NCBI GenBank assembly: GCA_017545185.1
Contig: JAFWQJ010000049.1
Coordinates: 1 to 52,227 of the forward strand
Origin: Oscillospiraceae bacterium
GTDB lineage: Bacteria > Bacillota > Clostridia > Oscillospirales > Ruminococcaceae
Length of the DNA: 52,227 nucleotides
Direction of reading: 5' to 3'
Shown here piece after piece: positions 11,073-48,948 of this stretch. The position numbers were made by a program, and so were the translations under genes. The notes beneath the pieces were generated by a model that was not told the origin of the DNA, did no database searches, and was given only the letters and a program-made list of their open reading frames with translations. Position 1 is the first letter of the stretch. Each line of letters begins with the position of its first letter.

Positions 11073-11076
11073 TCTA

Positions 11077-11178
11077 TAATGGGGTCTGGGGACTAGTCCC
11101 CGGCAGAGGCCAACATGAAGAAACAAGTTTCTTCATGTTTAGGGGCAGCGCCCCCATTTTTAATCCGTCGGAGACACC
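11077..11178 (-). repeat. Stop-codon-linked hairpin element, copy C
   Basis: Read on the minus strand, this begins immediately after the pgsA stop with GGTGTC, a small TCC/GGA hairpin and GGATT. It continues through a GGGGC/GCCCC hairpin, a 13-bp stem (AACATGAAGAAAC with GTTTCTTCATGTT), a GGGGAC/GTCCCC hairpin and GACCCCATTAT. The same order occurs after the exporter permease at 30540 and, in part, after mutL, after mutS and at 25029. Confidence 0.7.
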
Positions 11179-30539: not shown

Positions 30540-30648
30540 GGTATCGCTTCGCGAGGATTGAGAATGAGGGCTCCGCCCTTAAACATGAAGCAACTTGTTT
30601 TTTCATGTTGACTCCCGCTGGGGACATTGTCCCCGGACCCCATTATAT
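30540..30648 (+). repeat. Stop-codon-linked hairpin element, copy D
   Basis: Beginning on the base after the permease stop: GGTATC, a TCGC/GCGA hairpin, GGATT, a GAGGGC/GCCCTT hairpin, AACATGAA with TTCATGTT, GGGGAC with GTCCCC, and GACCCCATTAT. The order and anchors are those of copy C at 11077, with different stem sequences. A terminator follows at once. Confidence 0.75.
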
Positions 30649-30654
30649 GCAGCA

Positions 30655-42474: not shown

Positions 42475-43089
42475 TCACCGGAAGTAGATCCCGCTGATGA
42501 GTTCAGAAAGAGAAGCGGCGATCGGTTTGTCATCCGCGACCTTATCCGGCCGCCAGCTTTCAAGATAGATCTCGCCGGTTGCCCGCTGATACAAAATGGA
42601 ATGCGCGGCATAGCCCGTCCAGCCGATGCAGATAAACTGCTTTGCCTCCTGCAGGAGATGCGCTTCCGACGGGTTTTCCTCTGCGTGTTCCTCCCAGTCC
42701 TGATAGAATTCCTCGGTCAGTGCACAGACGCCGTATTTCTGAAACAGCACATCGTTGTCCGTTTCGCCGGTATGCTTCAGCACCGAAAACAAAATCGGCC
42801 CCTCATCGAACGGATAGCAGCTGCCGTTCGCGGACTGCTTCATGCAGTCATACGCGCCGCAGATATAGGAATGCCAGTAGAGATTGATATAATCCGCGAT
42901 GTCATCGGGCAGGTCAAAGCCGAATTTCTCCCGGAACGGCGCAAGATCTGTTTTCGTCGTGCGCGGGATCAGGAAATGCTGCCGGAACAGCGCGGTCATT
43001 TCGTCCGGTACGCCCTCGTATTCGCACGGGTTGAAGAAACCGGGCCTTGCCATTGCTTTTTGGCTGTAGGTCAGAAGTGCATTTTTCAT
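42475..43089 (-). CDS. SUKH/Syd-like protein
   Basis: A 204-residue soluble protein with a pattern like the SUKH or Syd fold: a helical N-terminal part (REKFGFDLPDDIADYINLYWHSYICGAY) and a strand block FICIGWTGYAAHSILYQRATGEIYLESWRPDK. The C-terminal helix is ISLSELISGIYF-like. SUKH proteins include immunity proteins that bind toxin nucleases. No toxin is encoded beside it, so this function is not shown. The ATG at 43089 follows GAGGTG; upstream, the frame runs into hairpin repeats that are not coding. It lies next to the cysteine hydrolase on the same strand. Confidence 0.65.
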   Translation of the reverse strand: MKNALLTYSQKAMARPGFFNPCEYEGVPDEMTALFRQHFLIPRTTKTDLAPFREKFGFDLPDDIADYINLYWHSYICGAYDCMKQSANGSCYPFDEGPILFSVLKHTGETDNDVLFQKYGVCALTEEFYQDWEEHAEENPSEAHLLQEAKQFICIGWTGYAAHSILYQRATGEIYLESWRPDKVADDKPIAASLSELISGIYFR

Positions 43090-43130
43090 GGATGTCACCT
43101 CGATTGTAACTGCTGTGTCGCGGGCACTTT

Positions 43131-43519
43131 CCGAATCGCTGCTGCGATTCGGCTTTCTCAGGGCTTGCAGCCCTGAGCACCCGCGTTCGCGCTGGAAGCT
43201 CGCGCTGACTTCGCCATCGCTATGCTTCACGCGCGCTGCGAATCCCTTTGGGATTCGCTTGGGGACGCCCTCTCTTACAGGGCGTCCCCCTTCCAAAAAC
43301 GCTCCCCCGGAGCGTTTTTGAAATTCCCCCTTGCGGTGCGCCTGACGATAGGGGAGTTTCGTACTCTGCGGAGTGCGACGGGGGCTCTGCCCCTCGACCC
43401 CGCAAACTTTTGAAAAAGTTTGATCAAAACTTTTATTTTTTGCCCGACCGGTTGCGTTCCTTTGTCCACATAACGGGGTCTGGGGCGGAGCCCCATTTTG
43501 AATCCGCCGGCGGCACCGC
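43131..43519 (-). repeat. Hairpin-rich element, copy A, at the mutL stop codon
   Basis: About 390 bases with at least nine stems. From the mutL stop on the minus strand: GCGGTG, CCGC/GCGG, GGATT, GGGGC/GCCCC and GACCCCGTTATGTGGA. Further on (plus strand) lie CAAACTTTT (43403-43411) with AAAAGTTTG, a GGGGGC stem at 43380, CGTACTC with GAGTGCG (43360-43377), a 12-bp CAAAAACGCTCC stem at 43294, GGGGACGCCCT with AGGGCGTCCCC (43261-43289) and GCGAATCCC with GGGATTCGC (43238-43258). Two more stems lie at 43131-43177. Several are shared in order with copy B. Confidence 0.8.
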
Positions 43520-45553
43520 TTAATTCTGAATACGCTTGAACTGCTTTTCGATCTGGTATTTCGATAACAAAAACAGCACCGGGCGGCCGTGCGGACAATG
43601 CCGGATCTGGTCATTCTCCCAGACCTGCACCGCCAGCGACTGCAGTTCTTCCTTCGTGTTATGCGTTCCCGCGCGGATCGCCGCCTTGCACGCCAGATCA
43701 TGGAACATGTCATCCAGCAGATGCATGTCCGGCTGCACCTGATTTTTCAGGCAGTTCGCCGCAAGGTCGGCCGCGATCTGATCGAGGTCAAGCTCCGCGC
43801 AGGAAAGCGGTACGCCCGTCAGCTGCACGACCGGCGCCTCGCTGAAATCAAACGTAAACCCGCAGCCGAGCAGCGTCTCCTGCTGCTCCTGCAGGGCAGA
43901 GAGCTCGTCCGCCGTCAGCAGAACGCGCACCGGCGTCAGCAGCTGCTGACGGTCGCGGCATTCGCGGGTGCGGAACCGCTCAAACAGAATGCGCTCATGG
44001 GCGGCGTGCTTGTCGATCATCACAAACTGCTCGCCGGCCTCGGCCAGAATATAATTCTCAAACAGCTCCCCGATCACCGTGATTTTCTCGCGGCGGATCG
44101 CGGAGATCGCTTCATTGCGCGCCTCCGGTTCGTCGGGCAGCTCCTGTGGAGACGGCTCCGGTCTCTCTGCCGGTACTGTCTCCGGCATCGGCCGGACAGG
44201 GACTGCGGGCTGTGCGGTCAGATTGGAAAACGCCTTCAGTGCCTCCGTCACAGCAGGCTTCTGCGGTGATTTCGGCACGACAGGCTGCGGCGCTGTATGC
44301 TGCACCGGAACAGCCGGTCTGCTTACCGGCTCCGGCATCGGTGCGGGAGCCGACGGAGCGGCCGACTGTGTATGCGGCACCTCGGTCCGCTTCTCAAAGA
44401 GCGGCGCGGGCGTATTGCTGTCCGTGCCGGCGACCGGCGCGAACCAGTCCTGCTTCGGACGCTGCGGCGTATAGATCTGCGGCGTGATCTTCGGCATGAC
44501 GGGCGGCTGTTCGGCAGGCTTTTCCTGCTCCGGGATCTGAAATTCGTAGATCAGATTATGCTGTTCGAGCGCGCCCAGCACCGCAAAATACACCGCATTA
44601 TAAATGCGCTTTTCGTCGGAGAAGCGCACCTCGGCTTTCGTCGGGTGCATGTTGACATCGACGATGCGCGGCGAGACCGTGACCGTCAGCACGCAGGCCG
44701 GATATTTTCCGGTCATGATGAGCGTTTTATAGGCTTCCTCGATCGCGGAGATCAGCGTAAACGAACGCACGGAGCGTCCGTTGATAAAGAAAAGCTGGTG
44801 CGAGCGGTTCGGGCGCGCATACAGCGGCTTCATCACATAGCCGCCGACCGTGATGCCGCCGTTTTCCTGTCCCTGATACTGAACGGGGAGCAGGTCGCGG
44901 GCGAAGTCCTTGCCGAAGATCGCATAGATCGCGGAATAAAGCTCGCCGTCGCCGGGCGTGACAAATTCGGTTTTGTTCTCGCGGATCAGCCGGAAGGAGA
45001 TCTCCGGATGCGACAGCGCGATCTTCTGAAAGATATTCGCGGCGGCATTGCCCTCGGCGGTATCCTTTTTGAGAAAGCCTGCACGCACCGGCACATTATA
45101 AAACAGGTCGCGCACGACGACCGTCGTACCCTCGGGGCAGCCGCTCTGCTCAAAGGCGGTCTCCTCGCCGCCTTCGATGCGGTAATGCGTGCCGTATTCC
45201 GCACCCGGCTGACGGGTCAGGACTTCCGTCCGGGAGACGGCGCAGATCGAAGCGAGTGCCTCGCCGCGGAATCCGAGCGTGAAGATCGTTTCGAGATCCT
45301 CTGCGGTGCTGATCTTGCTGGTCGCATGGCGGAGAAATGCCGTCCGTACCTGCTCCGGCGCGATGCCGCAGCCGTCATCGGTGACGCGCAGATAGAGCAC
45401 ACCGCCGCGCTTCAGTTCCGCGGTGATGCGCTTGGCGCCGGAATCAATGGCATTTTCCGTCAGCTCCTTGAGGACGGATGCGGGGCGTTCAATGACCTCG
45501 CCCGCTGCGATCAGCTCGGCGATTTCCTTCGGTAAAACGTGAATCTCAGGCAC
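43520..45553 (-). CDS. mutL: DNA mismatch repair protein MutL
   Basis: MutL links MutS bound to a mismatch with strand removal. The 677-residue protein has the GHKL ATPase domain with NAIDSGAKRI, DDGCGIAPEQV, TLGFRGEALASI and GTTVVVRDLFYNVPVR. A Pro/Ala-rich linker (about 340-490) follows, then a C-terminal dimerization and nuclease domain. There the CPHGRP motif (near the C-terminus) and a DxHAAHERILFE block (ADKHAAHERILFER-like, residues about 515-530) fit the metal-binding endonuclease of bacteria lacking MutH. It starts at GTG 45553, with GAAAGGATA 10 bases before it. The stop abuts repeat copy A. Confidence 0.97.
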   Translation of the reverse strand: MPEIHVLPKEIAELIAAGEVIERPASVLKELTENAIDSGAKRITAELKRGGVLYLRVTDDGCGIAPEQVRTAFLRHATSKISTAEDLETIFTLGFRGEALASICAVSRTEVLTRQPGAEYGTHYRIEGGEETAFEQSGCPEGTTVVVRDLFYNVPVRAGFLKKDTAEGNAAANIFQKIALSHPEISFRLIRENKTEFVTPGDGELYSAIYAIFGKDFARDLLPVQYQGQENGGITVGGYVMKPLYARPNRSHQLFFINGRSVRSFTLISAIEEAYKTLIMTGKYPACVLTVTVSPRIVDVNMHPTKAEVRFSDEKRIYNAVYFAVLGALEQHNLIYEFQIPEQEKPAEQPPVMPKITPQIYTPQRPKQDWFAPVAGTDSNTPAPLFEKRTEVPHTQSAAPSAPAPMPEPVSRPAVPVQHTAPQPVVPKSPQKPAVTEALKAFSNLTAQPAVPVRPMPETVPAERPEPSPQELPDEPEARNEAISAIRREKITVIGELFENYILAEAGEQFVMIDKHAAHERILFERFRTRECRDRQQLLTPVRVLLTADELSALQEQQETLLGCGFTFDFSEAPVVQLTGVPLSCAELDLDQIAADLAANCLKNQVQPDMHLLDDMFHDLACKAAIRAGTHNTKEELQSLAVQVWENDQIRHCPHGRPVLFLLSKYQIEKQFKRIQN

Positions 45554-45586
45554 AGGTTTATCCTTTCTAGGCGGCTGTTTATCAGC

Positions 45587-45910
45587 TCACCAGTCATCCT
45601 GTATCGTGGTATGCAAAAGCTGTTCCAGACCGTCAAAAACAGCTTTTATCCTTGCATCCTTCCGGATGCCCCAATATAAGTCGTCCGTTGTGACGATCCC
45701 GATATAGTTGGTTTTTTCGGGGTCATAATCTTCGCTGTTCCAGCGGGCAAAGTCCCGGACGCACAGCAGCGAGATGCTGAGAAACGGGTTCTGCGCCGTG
45801 AACCGATCTGCCGGGAACAGACCCGTGCTGCGCAGATATTGTTCGATCTGTGCGGTGTCCCATGTCTCGGAGATATCGCGGGTTTTGAAGTGATAGTATA
45901 CGTAATCCAT
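45587..45910 (-). CDS. Small hypothetical protein between mutS and mutL
   Basis: A 107-residue soluble protein with no family I recognise: YVYYHFKTRDISETWDTAQIEQYLRSTG at the start and TNYIGIVTTDDLYWGIRKDARIKAVFDGLEQLLH at the end. It looks well folded with mixed alpha/beta content and no signal. Its ATG follows a GGAGAC site. It lies 34 bases before the mutL start and could be co-transcribed with it, and it is separated from mutS by repeat copy B. Confidence 0.65.
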   Translation of the reverse strand: MDYVYYHFKTRDISETWDTAQIEQYLRSTGLFPADRFTAQNPFLSISLLCVRDFARWNSEDYDPEKTNYIGIVTTDDLYWGIRKDARIKAVFDGLEQLLHTTIQDDW

Positions 45911-45961
45911 TGTCAGTGTCTCCGTCAGTATACGGCGGGCGGCTTGCTTCGCGCTTCACTC

Positions 45962-46320
45962 GTCGCGGCTGATGCCGCTTTTATGTTCAGCGCACGCGGC
46001 GAATCTCTTTGAGATTCGCCTGATAAGAAGTATCCGCTGCGCGGATGCTATTATAGAATGGGGACCTCTATCGCAGGTCCCCAAGCCCGCCGAGCTCTTG
46101 AACGCAGGGGAGTTTCGCCGTCTGCGGACGGCGACGAGGGCGCTGCCCTCGACCCGCGAGCTTTTGAAAAAGCTCGACCAAAACTTTTGATATGGCTGCA
46201 AACGGTTCGCTTATTACCCGACCGGTTACGCCCCCTCTATCCACATAACGGGGTCCGGGGACTAGTCCCCGGCGGGGGTTTGGGGGCAGAGCCCCCATTT
46301 CAAATCCATCGGAGATACCG
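45962..46320 (-). repeat. Hairpin-rich element, copy B, at the mutS stop codon
   Basis: Same layout as copy A with different stem bases. Plus strand: GGCGAATCTC with GAGATTCGCC (45998-46020), an ATCCGC stem at 46032, GGGGACCT with AGGTCCCC (46060-46082), CGCCGTC with GACGGCG (46116-46133), GAGGGC with GCCCTC (46136-46150) and CGAGCTTTT with AAAAGCTCG (46157-46176). Then CCGACCGGTTACG, ATCCACATAACGGGGTC, GGGGACTAGTCCCC, GGGGGC with GCCCCC, and AATCC...GGAGATACCG, ending one base before the mutS stop. Confidence 0.8.
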
Positions 46321-48948
46321 CTATCTCAGCATTGCCGTCAGGTCGAGCAGGAGCTCGCGGCATTCTTCGTCGGTCAGCTCATTGACATGGGTCTTGGAAA
46401 GCTGCGCAATGACCTGCGCGTCGGCATCCGCGGAAAAGCTCATCTGCCCTGCGGATTCCGCCGCAAGCTTCGCCTGATAGCTCTCCTTCTCCGCTTTGGA
46501 CTGCGCTTCCATTTCGGTCAGCAGTGCTCTTGCGCGGTTCGTCACCTGTGTGGGCAGACCCGCCAGTTTCGCGACCTCAATGCCGTAGCTGTCATCCGCT
46601 GCGCCGTCCACGATCTTGCGCAGGAACCGGATCGTATCGCCGTGTTTTTTCACGGCGACGCTCAGATTCCGCACGCCGTCGCACTGACCCGCCAGCATCG
46701 TCAGCTCGTGATAATGCGTCGCAAACAGCGTCTTGCAGCCGATCTTTTTGCCGGAGATGAACTCCGCGACCGCCCGCGCAATGCTGATGCCGTCAAATGT
46801 GGATGTACCGCGCCCGACCTCGTCCAGAATGACAAGGCTCTGCGCAGTCGCACGCTTCAGGATCGTCGAGACCTCGTGCATTTCGACCATGAACGTCGAT
46901 TCGCCCGCGGTCAGGTCGTCCGATGCGCCGACACGCGTGAAGATCTGGTCAACGACCGAAATTTTCGCGTAGGACGCCGGCACAAAGCTGCCCATCTGCG
47001 CCATGAGCACGATCAGCGCGGTCTGACGCATGTAGGTCGATTTGCCGCTCATGTTCGGCCCCGTGATGATCGCGAGGCGGTTGGCCTTCTGGTCAAGCAG
47101 GACGTCATTCGGCACAAAGACCGTATCCGTCAGCATCTGCTCGACGACCGGATGCCGCCCGTCGTGGATCTCGATCCTGCCGTCCACGGCGATCTCCGGC
47201 TTGCAGTATTCGTTTTCGAGTGCGGTCAGCGCGAGCGAGCAGAGCACATCCACCTGCGCGACCGCCGCTGCCGTATCCTGCACGGTCTTGAGCTGCTGTG
47301 CGAGAAATTCGCGCAGCTCCGAGAAAATCACGCTTTCCAGTGCAAGTGCCTTATCCTTTGCGCCGACGATCGTGTTTTCCGCATCGCGGAGCTCCTGCGT
47401 GATGTAACGCTCACAGTTTGCGAGCGTCTGCTTGCGGATCCACTCCGGCGGCACCTGCTCGTAATACGACCGCGACACCTCAAGATAATAGCCGAACACG
47501 CGGTTATAGCCCGTTTTCAGATTCTTGATGCCGGTGCGCTCGCGCTCGCGGTTCTCGATCTCCGTGATCAGCTCCGTGCCGTGGTTCATCGCGTGGCGCA
47601 GCTGATCGAGCTCCTGATGAAAGCCGTCGCGGATGACGCCGCCGTCCTTGATCTGCACAGGCGGCTCCTCAACGAGTGCGCGCTCGATCAGATCGGAGAT
47701 CTCATTCAGCGGCGAAATTTCGGATTCGAGCTTCGTCAGCAGCTTGGACTGCGTCAGCTTCTGCAGCTGTGCCTTGATCGCAGGCAGCTGCAGTGCAGTC
47801 TGCGAAAGTGCCTTCATATCGCGCGGCGTCGCCTTCTGGAACATGACGCGGGACATCAGGCGTTCGAGGTCGAACACCTTGTCCAGCAGATCGCGCAGCT
47901 CGGTCATGGCGACGCTGTTTTTCATCAGTACCTCGACGGCATTCAGCCTGTCCATGATGCGGACGGGCGTCGTCAGCGGCTGCTCCATCCATGTGCGGAG
48001 CATACGCCGTCCCATGGCGGTCTCAGTCTGGTCAAGCACGCCGAGCAGCGAGCCCTTTTTCTCATGCGAGCGCAGCGTTTCGGTCAGTTCGAGGTTGCGC
48101 CGCGCATTCGCGTCCAGCCCCATGATGCCGTCTTTGCCGTGGATCGTGATCTCGGTAAAGCGGCCGACCAGCGCGCGCTGTGTCTCCGCGATATACTGGA
48201 ACAGTCCGCAGCAGACGCACGCATCTGCGCCGTTTTCGGAGATACCGAGCGCGGTGAAGCTCTCGGCGGCGCATTGCTTTAAGACGGTCTCGCGCTGCTG
48301 CTCCGGAGAGAAGCAGGCGTCATCCCGCAGCGTGACCATGCAGTTCGTGCGCGTTTTCAGGAAGTCCGCCACGGGCTTATAATCCAGAAAATCCTTCGTG
48401 ATGAGCAGCTCGGACGGGTGATACCGGTCAAGCAGGCTGATCAGGTCATCCGTGCGGGTCTTGCCCTCCAGCCGGTGCAGATTGACCGCGCCGGTCGAGA
48501 TATCCGCTGCGCAGAACGCGATCTCCTCGTCACGGCTCCACACCGCGGCGAGGTAATTGCAGTTGGATTCATCGAGCATACTCGATTCGATCAGCGTACC
48601 CGGCGTGACGACACGGATGACGCCGCGCTCGACCAGACCCTTTGCGAGTGCCGGATCCTCCATCTGCTCGCAGATCGCGACGCGGTAGCCGAGATTGACG
48701 AGCCGCTTCAGATACTGCTCCACGGCATGATACGGCACGCCGCACATCGGGGCGCGCGTCGGCAGACCGCAGTCGCGGCCGGTCAGTGTCAGCTCCAGAA
48801 GCTTGGAAACAAGGATCGCGTCATCAAAGAACATCTCGTAAAAGTCACCGAGACGGAAAAACACGATCGCGTCGCCGGATGCATCCTTGACCGCAAGGTA
48901 CTGCTGCATCATCGGCGAAAGCTTGGAGCGGTCGATCTCCATACCCAT
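46321..48948 (-). CDS. mutS: DNA mismatch repair protein MutS
   Basis: MutS recognises mismatches and small loops and recruits MutL. The 875-residue protein has the mismatch-binding domain with the Phe-x-Glu motif FYEMFFDDA (about residues 36-44), a connector, the lever and clamp (RALVGRFTEI onward), and the ATPase domain with Walker A GPNMSGKST (about residue 630), signature STFMVEMHE, Walker B ILDEVGRGTSTFDG and ATHYHEL. The C-terminal helix-turn-helix follows. The first of two close ATGs is used (48948); no strong ribosome-binding site is seen, so translation may be coupled to ylbF, which ends 8 bases upstream. Confidence 0.98.
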   Translation of the reverse strand: MGMEIDRSKLSPMMQQYLAVKDASGDAIVFFRLGDFYEMFFDDAILVSKLLELTLTGRDCGLPTRAPMCGVPYHAVEQYLKRLVNLGYRVAICEQMEDPALAKGLVERGVIRVVTPGTLIESSMLDESNCNYLAAVWSRDEEIAFCAADISTGAVNLHRLEGKTRTDDLISLLDRYHPSELLITKDFLDYKPVADFLKTRTNCMVTLRDDACFSPEQQRETVLKQCAAESFTALGISENGADACVCCGLFQYIAETQRALVGRFTEITIHGKDGIMGLDANARRNLELTETLRSHEKKGSLLGVLDQTETAMGRRMLRTWMEQPLTTPVRIMDRLNAVEVLMKNSVAMTELRDLLDKVFDLERLMSRVMFQKATPRDMKALSQTALQLPAIKAQLQKLTQSKLLTKLESEISPLNEISDLIERALVEEPPVQIKDGGVIRDGFHQELDQLRHAMNHGTELITEIENRERERTGIKNLKTGYNRVFGYYLEVSRSYYEQVPPEWIRKQTLANCERYITQELRDAENTIVGAKDKALALESVIFSELREFLAQQLKTVQDTAAAVAQVDVLCSLALTALENEYCKPEIAVDGRIEIHDGRHPVVEQMLTDTVFVPNDVLLDQKANRLAIITGPNMSGKSTYMRQTALIVLMAQMGSFVPASYAKISVVDQIFTRVGASDDLTAGESTFMVEMHEVSTILKRATAQSLVILDEVGRGTSTFDGISIARAVAEFISGKKIGCKTLFATHYHELTMLAGQCDGVRNLSVAVKKHGDTIRFLRKIVDGAADDSYGIEVAKLAGLPTQVTNRARALLTEMEAQSKAEKESYQAKLAAESAGQMSFSADADAQVIAQLSKTHVNELTDEECRELLLDLTAMLR

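Follow-up and report, generated by a model that had tools for sequence, protein, structure and literature searches.

Within the window (the whole stretch of 52,227 nucleotides that was analysed), mutL (43520..45553; Pfam DNA_mis_repair and MutL_C) and mutS (46321..48948; Pfam MutS domains I-V) are encoded on the minus strand, and each is followed by a long, hairpin-rich element on that same strand. The element preceded by mutL (named copy A; 43131..43519) adjoins the mutL stop codon (43520-43522), while the element preceded by mutS (copy B; 45999..46320) adjoins the mutS stop. Their hairpins are designated by module labels of our own, which run in gene-sense order from M1 at the stop codon, through M2-M5, a core of M6-M7-M8 and M9-M12, to further hairpins.

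In copy A, the stop-codon hairpin M1 (GGTGCCGCCGGCGG; 43504..43517) is followed by M2 (43482..43494), the core hairpin M6 together with its upstream AAAAGTTTTGATC (43403..43434), M7 (43379..43395), M8 (43360..43377; containing one C-A mismatch), M10 (43291..43322), M11 (43261..43290) and M12 (43238..43258). Copy B carries M1 (GGTATCTCCGATGG; 46306..46319), M2 (46282..46296), M3 (46255..46272), M5 (46203..46225), the core M6 (46157..46188), M7 (46135..46151) and M8 (46116..46133), a hairpin in the place of M11 (46060..46082), a hairpin GCATCCGC/GCGGATAC (46030..46048) and M12 (45999..46019). The modules of the M8-M12 interval are therefore partly different between the two copies (43291-43322 in A, 46030-46048 in B). 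The original prediction, which placed the elements at 43238-43519 and 45998-46320, has to be amended, the real extents being larger (approximately 45999-46320 for B): copy A reaches down to 43131 by means of two extra hairpins (43157-43177 and 43131-43152; 43131..43177, minus strand), which are present also in its orthologue L066. A partial copy without the core, corresponding to the M2-M3 region, is located behind another gene of the window (11076..11178, minus strand).

Copies A and B were aligned in register by a repeat search, in which a 60-nt block was 75% identical and two 36-nt blocks were 86% and 81% identical; both folded better than dinucleotide shuffles, with z values of -6.96 (A) and -5.36 (B). 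The two elements had been predicted to possess the same hairpins in the same order with changes on both arms, and this is indeed the case, five hairpins being in correspondence. All four arm pairs quoted in support of that prediction are present, but CGTACTC/GAGTGCG of copy A is not fully complementary, its T-G on the plus strand being a C-A mismatch in gene sense. At the termini of A and B, the repeat search of the window listed neither inverted repeats nor a target duplication.

Copy A produced 52 BLAST matches in its own genome, and a covariance model of the three-hairpin core (R1), built from alignment A1 (32 of 38 copies, following omission of four nested-hairpin and two short ones), identified 56 places in this genome at E <= 0.001. 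A looser core pattern, which returned 114 stretches, many of them false, was not used. The core model matched in 32 of 61 relatives and in 27 of the 30 genomes of the genus (own genome included), at 0-69 matches each. In the order sample, for which 11 candidates were scored per genome so that per-genome copy counts are lower bounds, the core was retrieved from 67 of 394 genomes, which belong to ten families and to 40 of the 169 genera sampled. The 56 core copies in the genome and the 67 of 394 positive genomes rule out that A and B are a private pair. In the copies that were read, the modules follow a single arrangement in both order and polarity. The own genome is GC-rich and consists of 94 contigs, with some copies at contig ends (L004, L022 and L027), and the named relatives are MAG records, all of these being draft assemblies.

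A known RNA family was rejected on the basis of an Rfam search, which gave no match at gathering score in the window and three weak, chance-level matches in eight loci, in agreement with the initial statement that the elements do not belong to a recognised class. A phage or plasmid origin was likewise rejected, copy B having no match among the phage and plasmid sequences searched. No description or name of this repeat family was found in the literature searched, mostly non-subscription papers, including by means of sequence strings.

The predicted location at gene 3' ends was confirmed by the gene calls around the copies of the own genome. An upstream gene call was available for 54 of the 56 copies, of which 28 have convergent neighbours, 22 have co-directional ones (19 copies in sense and three in antisense orientation) and four have divergent ones; single distances are approximate, the hexamer-scored ORF caller having missed a gene at 42475-43089. 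Co-directional sites are the only ones informative of orientation, and our own calculation of their 19 sense to three antisense distribution gives a two-sided binomial probability of approximately 0.001. In all 25 copies with an M1 pattern, the start of M1 lies at -25 to +4 nt relative to where the called stop codon ends; in six of these 25, that stop is itself contained in M1 or placed just behind it. A terminator-like module (M4), in which a T run comes after a hairpin, precedes the core in 22 of the 56 own copies, so that the mRNA may often end ahead of the core. The counts of M1, M4, M12 and M13 are pattern-based and miss variants such as those of L019 and L021. M4 is not present in A or B, and the region 43080-46340 contains 11 terminator-like matches (shuffle mean 3.3), two of which fall within A or B.

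A mutL match was obtained in 29 genomes of the genus, and four of these (the own genome, G021, G018 and G026) proved to carry the core in the mutL neighbourhood retrieved for them; some loci are cut off by contig ends and do not allow a judgement. As the core is absent from the mutL/mutS neighbourhoods of most relatives, a conserved mutL/mutS cis-element is not supported.

Conservation of pairing was assessed in an order-wide alignment (A4) of 53 copies from 47 loci of other genomes, omitting L036 (own genome) and L038 (G021). In this alignment, which is fitted to the core model and consists mostly of the best-scoring copy per genome, standard pairs make up 99.2% of the 992 pair cells, and both sides are changed in 159. 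Sliding of the partner column yielded at most 18 double-changed cells, and none of 500 shuffles reached the observed pairing or double-change values. A tree null, in which the columns of 47 rows (one per locus) were evolved independently in 300 simulations, gave a mean pairing of 80.2% and a maximum of 92.3% against an observed 99.4%, and a mean of 20.2 double-changed cells with a maximum of 40 against an observed 132. At one position of M8, all four Watson-Crick pairs occur. The pairing of the hairpins is conserved far beyond chance across the order while their sequence changes, as had been proposed from A and B, and the check recommended with that proposal (a covariance model, a search of related genomes and covariation statistics) returned strong covariation, the pairs not varying independently.

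The variation of individual hairpins was surveyed in 126 copies from three genomes. M8 is present in 123 of these, 105 of which are perfectly paired and correspond to nine alleles, whereas the 18 imperfect ones represent 17 different types. M6, counted as outer-anchored stems, is present in 116 copies, five common alleles accounting for 106. According to our own reading of the allele lists, the common alleles of M6 and of M8 form networks connected by single paired changes; since they differ by such single steps, their origin may have been stepwise and compensatory. M6 and M8 alleles occur in 30 of the 42 combinations of common classes, yet the two are linked (V 0.41, permutation p 0.0005), with the M6 classes being partly split by stem register.

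Changes that occur at one and the same site were evaluated by comparing 24 own copies to those of the closest species (G021), requiring both flanks to match (mean flank identity 94.5%). The 41 comparisons of M6 and M8 made at these 24 sites comprise 21 identical hairpins, 12 with at least two double-sided pair changes, three with one and five with one-sided changes. M6 could be compared at 18 sites (eight identical, six with at least two double-sided changes, two one-sided, and two in which one double-sided pair change is accompanied by the gain or loss of one pair), being absent from one or both orthologues at the other six of the 24. M8 was comparable at 23 sites (13 identical, six with at least two double-sided changes, one with one and three one-sided) and missing at one. 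When compared to its orthologue, copy A has M6, M7 and M8 all replaced next to identical modules, and copy B has an identical core together with differing M1-M2.

In 14 of the 19 pairs first examined, the longest exact run was shared with a paralogue from either genome and not with the orthologue (nine of these 14 having an orthologue run of 9-24 nt), a comparison biased towards paralogues, since many of them compete with a single orthologue. Within this set of 19, the L136/L185 pair failed a stricter flank test, and one M6 'swap' was false, as L138 is without M6. Because many of the changed copies are closer to other copies than to their orthologue, change at a site is largely a matter of block swaps of shared alleles, resembling gene conversion. 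The view that structure is kept while sequence drifts is accordingly valid with regard to the maintained pairing and to the single paired steps that link the alleles, but not as simple drift in place: slow compensatory drift is insufficient to explain the orthologues, where 12 of 41 hairpins carry at least two double-sided changes between flanks of 94.5% identity. Furthermore, the flanks of own copies L028 and L030 (contig 60, opposite strands, approximately 20.8 kb apart) are exchanged relative to L169, L266 and L268 of G021, and the two flanks of L258 of G021 match own copies L009 and L143. These exchanges suggest recombination between copies, with the qualification that draft assemblies can be misjoined at repeats.

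When paired bases covary, this is usually taken to prove that an RNA structure is functional. In the order-wide alignment A4, G-U accounts for six of 992 pair cells, and among the M6, M8 and M12 stems surveyed in three genomes for 18 of approximately 2250 stem cells, as compared to 10 A-C and 14 other cells. A TPP riboswitch used as control from the same order has 48 G-U in 390 cells (12%), or 20 in 360 upon removal of its one fixed G-U pair. As G-U remains under 1% and is without clear strand bias, the evidence leans against plain RNA selection and towards maintenance at the DNA level, noting that selection for very stable stems would also lower G-U and that the stem finder favours perfect stems. 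The more specific proposition that covariation is kept mainly at the DNA level, by means of a pool of Watson-Crick-perfect alleles, very short-tract conversion between sites and arm-to-arm correction, is put forward tentatively and is, in our judgement, rather doubtful, its probability being reduced because the common alleles differ by single paired steps.

Taken as a whole, A and B are probably copies of a dispersed, mosaic, palindrome-rich extragenic family that works like REP/BIME and changes largely by block replacement. What has been observed is that the family has many copies, is spread over the order, keeps its hairpins paired, undergoes replacement of blocks where sites are orthologous and is located at gene ends. 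According to the proposed scheme, a copy would be located behind a gene and contain as many as approximately ten hairpins, the order and polarity of which are fixed, and every hairpin position would draw on a limited set of common alleles with perfect pairing. Short blocks at a site would be replaced by alleles from other copies through ectopic recombination or gene conversion, the latter being the presumed mechanism of exchange, which would cause both arms to change together. The matching of the arms would be due to correction at the DNA level (template switching from one arm to the other, for example), to selection for hairpins or to both, and an effect on the host, if any, would be expected at transcript 3' ends, in termination or protection. 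Against this explanation stand the linkage of alleles by single paired steps and the restricted mixing of M6 and M8, while the 19:3 sense bias hints at transcription.

An alternative explanation is based on selection at the RNA level, in which the elements are transcribed 3'-UTRs whose hairpins are kept by stepwise compensatory mutation, the RNA terminating, protecting or regulating the mRNA. Such a role would account for the strong covariation, the position behind genes with 19:3 in sense at informative sites, the alleles joined through single paired steps and the terminator-like M4 in 22 of 56 copies. However, G-U is very scarce and does not clearly exceed A-C in frequency, the TPP control being higher; multi-pair replacements are observed at orthologous sites, the occupancy of sites is poorly conserved, and in these 22 copies the terminator-like hairpin is located ahead of the core. 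RNA-level selection is considered unlikely, though it is the foremost of the competing explanations.

Still less probable is that the elements are non-autonomous and mobile, being moved in trans by a putative enzyme that reads the hairpins as single-stranded DNA, as is the case for REPs and RAYTs. Copy numbers ranging from 0 to 69 within one genus, lineage-specific sites, the rarity of G-U expected of DNA hairpins and the REP precedent (in the parts of PMC3733652 and PMC8266576 used here) all agree with mobility. However, a search for RAYT (Y1, PF01797), the one type of transposase covered, gave no match in the own genome and was positive in three of 30 genus genomes, so that movement of a REP by its own RAYT is not supported, and an informal comparison revealed neither shared ends nor a target duplication. 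Finally, the block swaps could be artefacts of metagenome assembly at repeats, the true copies being inherited and drifting in place. This would fit a genome of 94 contigs, relatives represented by MAG records and copies at contig ends, but several replaced tracts are short and enclosed in otherwise orthologous elements, 21 of 41 hairpins are identical, and allele diversity is comparable across the order, making an artefact highly improbable.

The preferred explanation, that of a block-replaced REP/BIME-like family, can be compared to known systems. In the passages of PMC3733652 consulted, REP/BIME are described as extragenic palindromic units combined in mosaics, mostly downstream of genes, the neighbouring genes being convergent or unidirectional; a stop codon may be provided by the ends of GTAG REPs, frequent G-T pairs are cited, and, judging from a title in the reference list, the notion that REPs undergo gene conversion is not new. 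The present family is similar in its high copy number, its mosaic make-up from extragenic palindromic units and its location at gene ends (28 convergent, 22 co-directional and four divergent of 54 copies). It differs in having up to approximately ten different hairpins in fixed order, rare G-U as opposed to the frequent G-T of REPs in those passages, strong covariation of alleles across an order, and the absence of RAYT from the own genome. It is described as working like a BIME family, and is not placed among RAYT-linked REPs.

For multibase compensatory changes without G-U intermediates, template switching has been proposed in the part of PMC8794818 consulted. The hairpins analysed here are comparable in their multibase changes and rare G-U, whereas the cases treated there concern mostly rRNA genes. 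Because arm-to-arm template switching corrects one arm and cannot alone replace both, the present case requires exchange between copies as well. Intrinsic terminators are resembled by M4 with its hairpin and T run (22 of 56 own copies), but A and B are without M4, and two of the 11 terminator-like matches lie inside them. Bacillus bcr repeats and integron attC sites are further candidates for comparison.

The family is a widespread gene-end component in gut bacteria and may mark points of chromosome rearrangement. Its combination of abundant order-wide covariation, largely block replacement at orthologous sites and few G-U could be used to separate RNA selection from maintenance of hairpins at the DNA level. 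If the DNA-level reading were true, covariation by itself would not suffice to establish that a multi-copy bacterial element represents an RNA; moreover, the family would offer a natural system in which to watch hairpin evolution and repeat-mediated rearrangement.

A last comparison concerns CGTC-tagged REPs, for which the passages of PMC3733652 used here report no dedicated transposase and mention no Firmicutes or Clostridia members. In the present family, most own copies have GTCG at M8; in contrast to those REPs, the base in front of it is variable and other tetranucleotides are found. Upon examination of M8, GTCG was located before or at the start of this module in 48 of 56 own copies, the preceding base varying with the M7 allele, and GCCG, GGCG and ATCG also occur.

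Across 30 genomes of one genus, the number of element copies per genome ranged from 0 to 69, with none being present in G006, G014 and G019. In genome G004, five copies of the core (M6-M7-M8; L189, L201, L203, L204 and L205) obtained an identical score of 86.7 bits with the covariance model, and this agreement in score may be the mark of a recent spread. When the own genome, GCA_017545185.1, was compared to that of the closest species (G021), two apparent rearrangements were observed whose breakpoints correspond to element copies (L028, L030, L009 and L143 against L169, L266, L268 and L258), and which may alternatively have arisen from misassembly.

The element was also encountered without its core, as partial copies located at positions 11076-11178 and 30611-30649 of the window. 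The 40 places in the own genome that were matched when the M1-M3 stretch of copy B (the copy behind mutS) was used as query indicate that the M1-M3 part also stands alone. Some copies, namely L010, L012 (11759-11872), L017, L024 and the partial copy at 11076-11178, carry within M7 or M2 an additional hairpin of the type ATGAAGAAAC...GTTTCTTCAT, the arrangement of which resembles a nested insertion.

Two small genes adjoin elements in the window, at 45587-45910 (-) and 42475-43089 (-), and comparison with Pfam retrieved no matching family for either. In some relatives, a reading frame resembling, as judged by eye, the 45587-45910 gene follows mutS.
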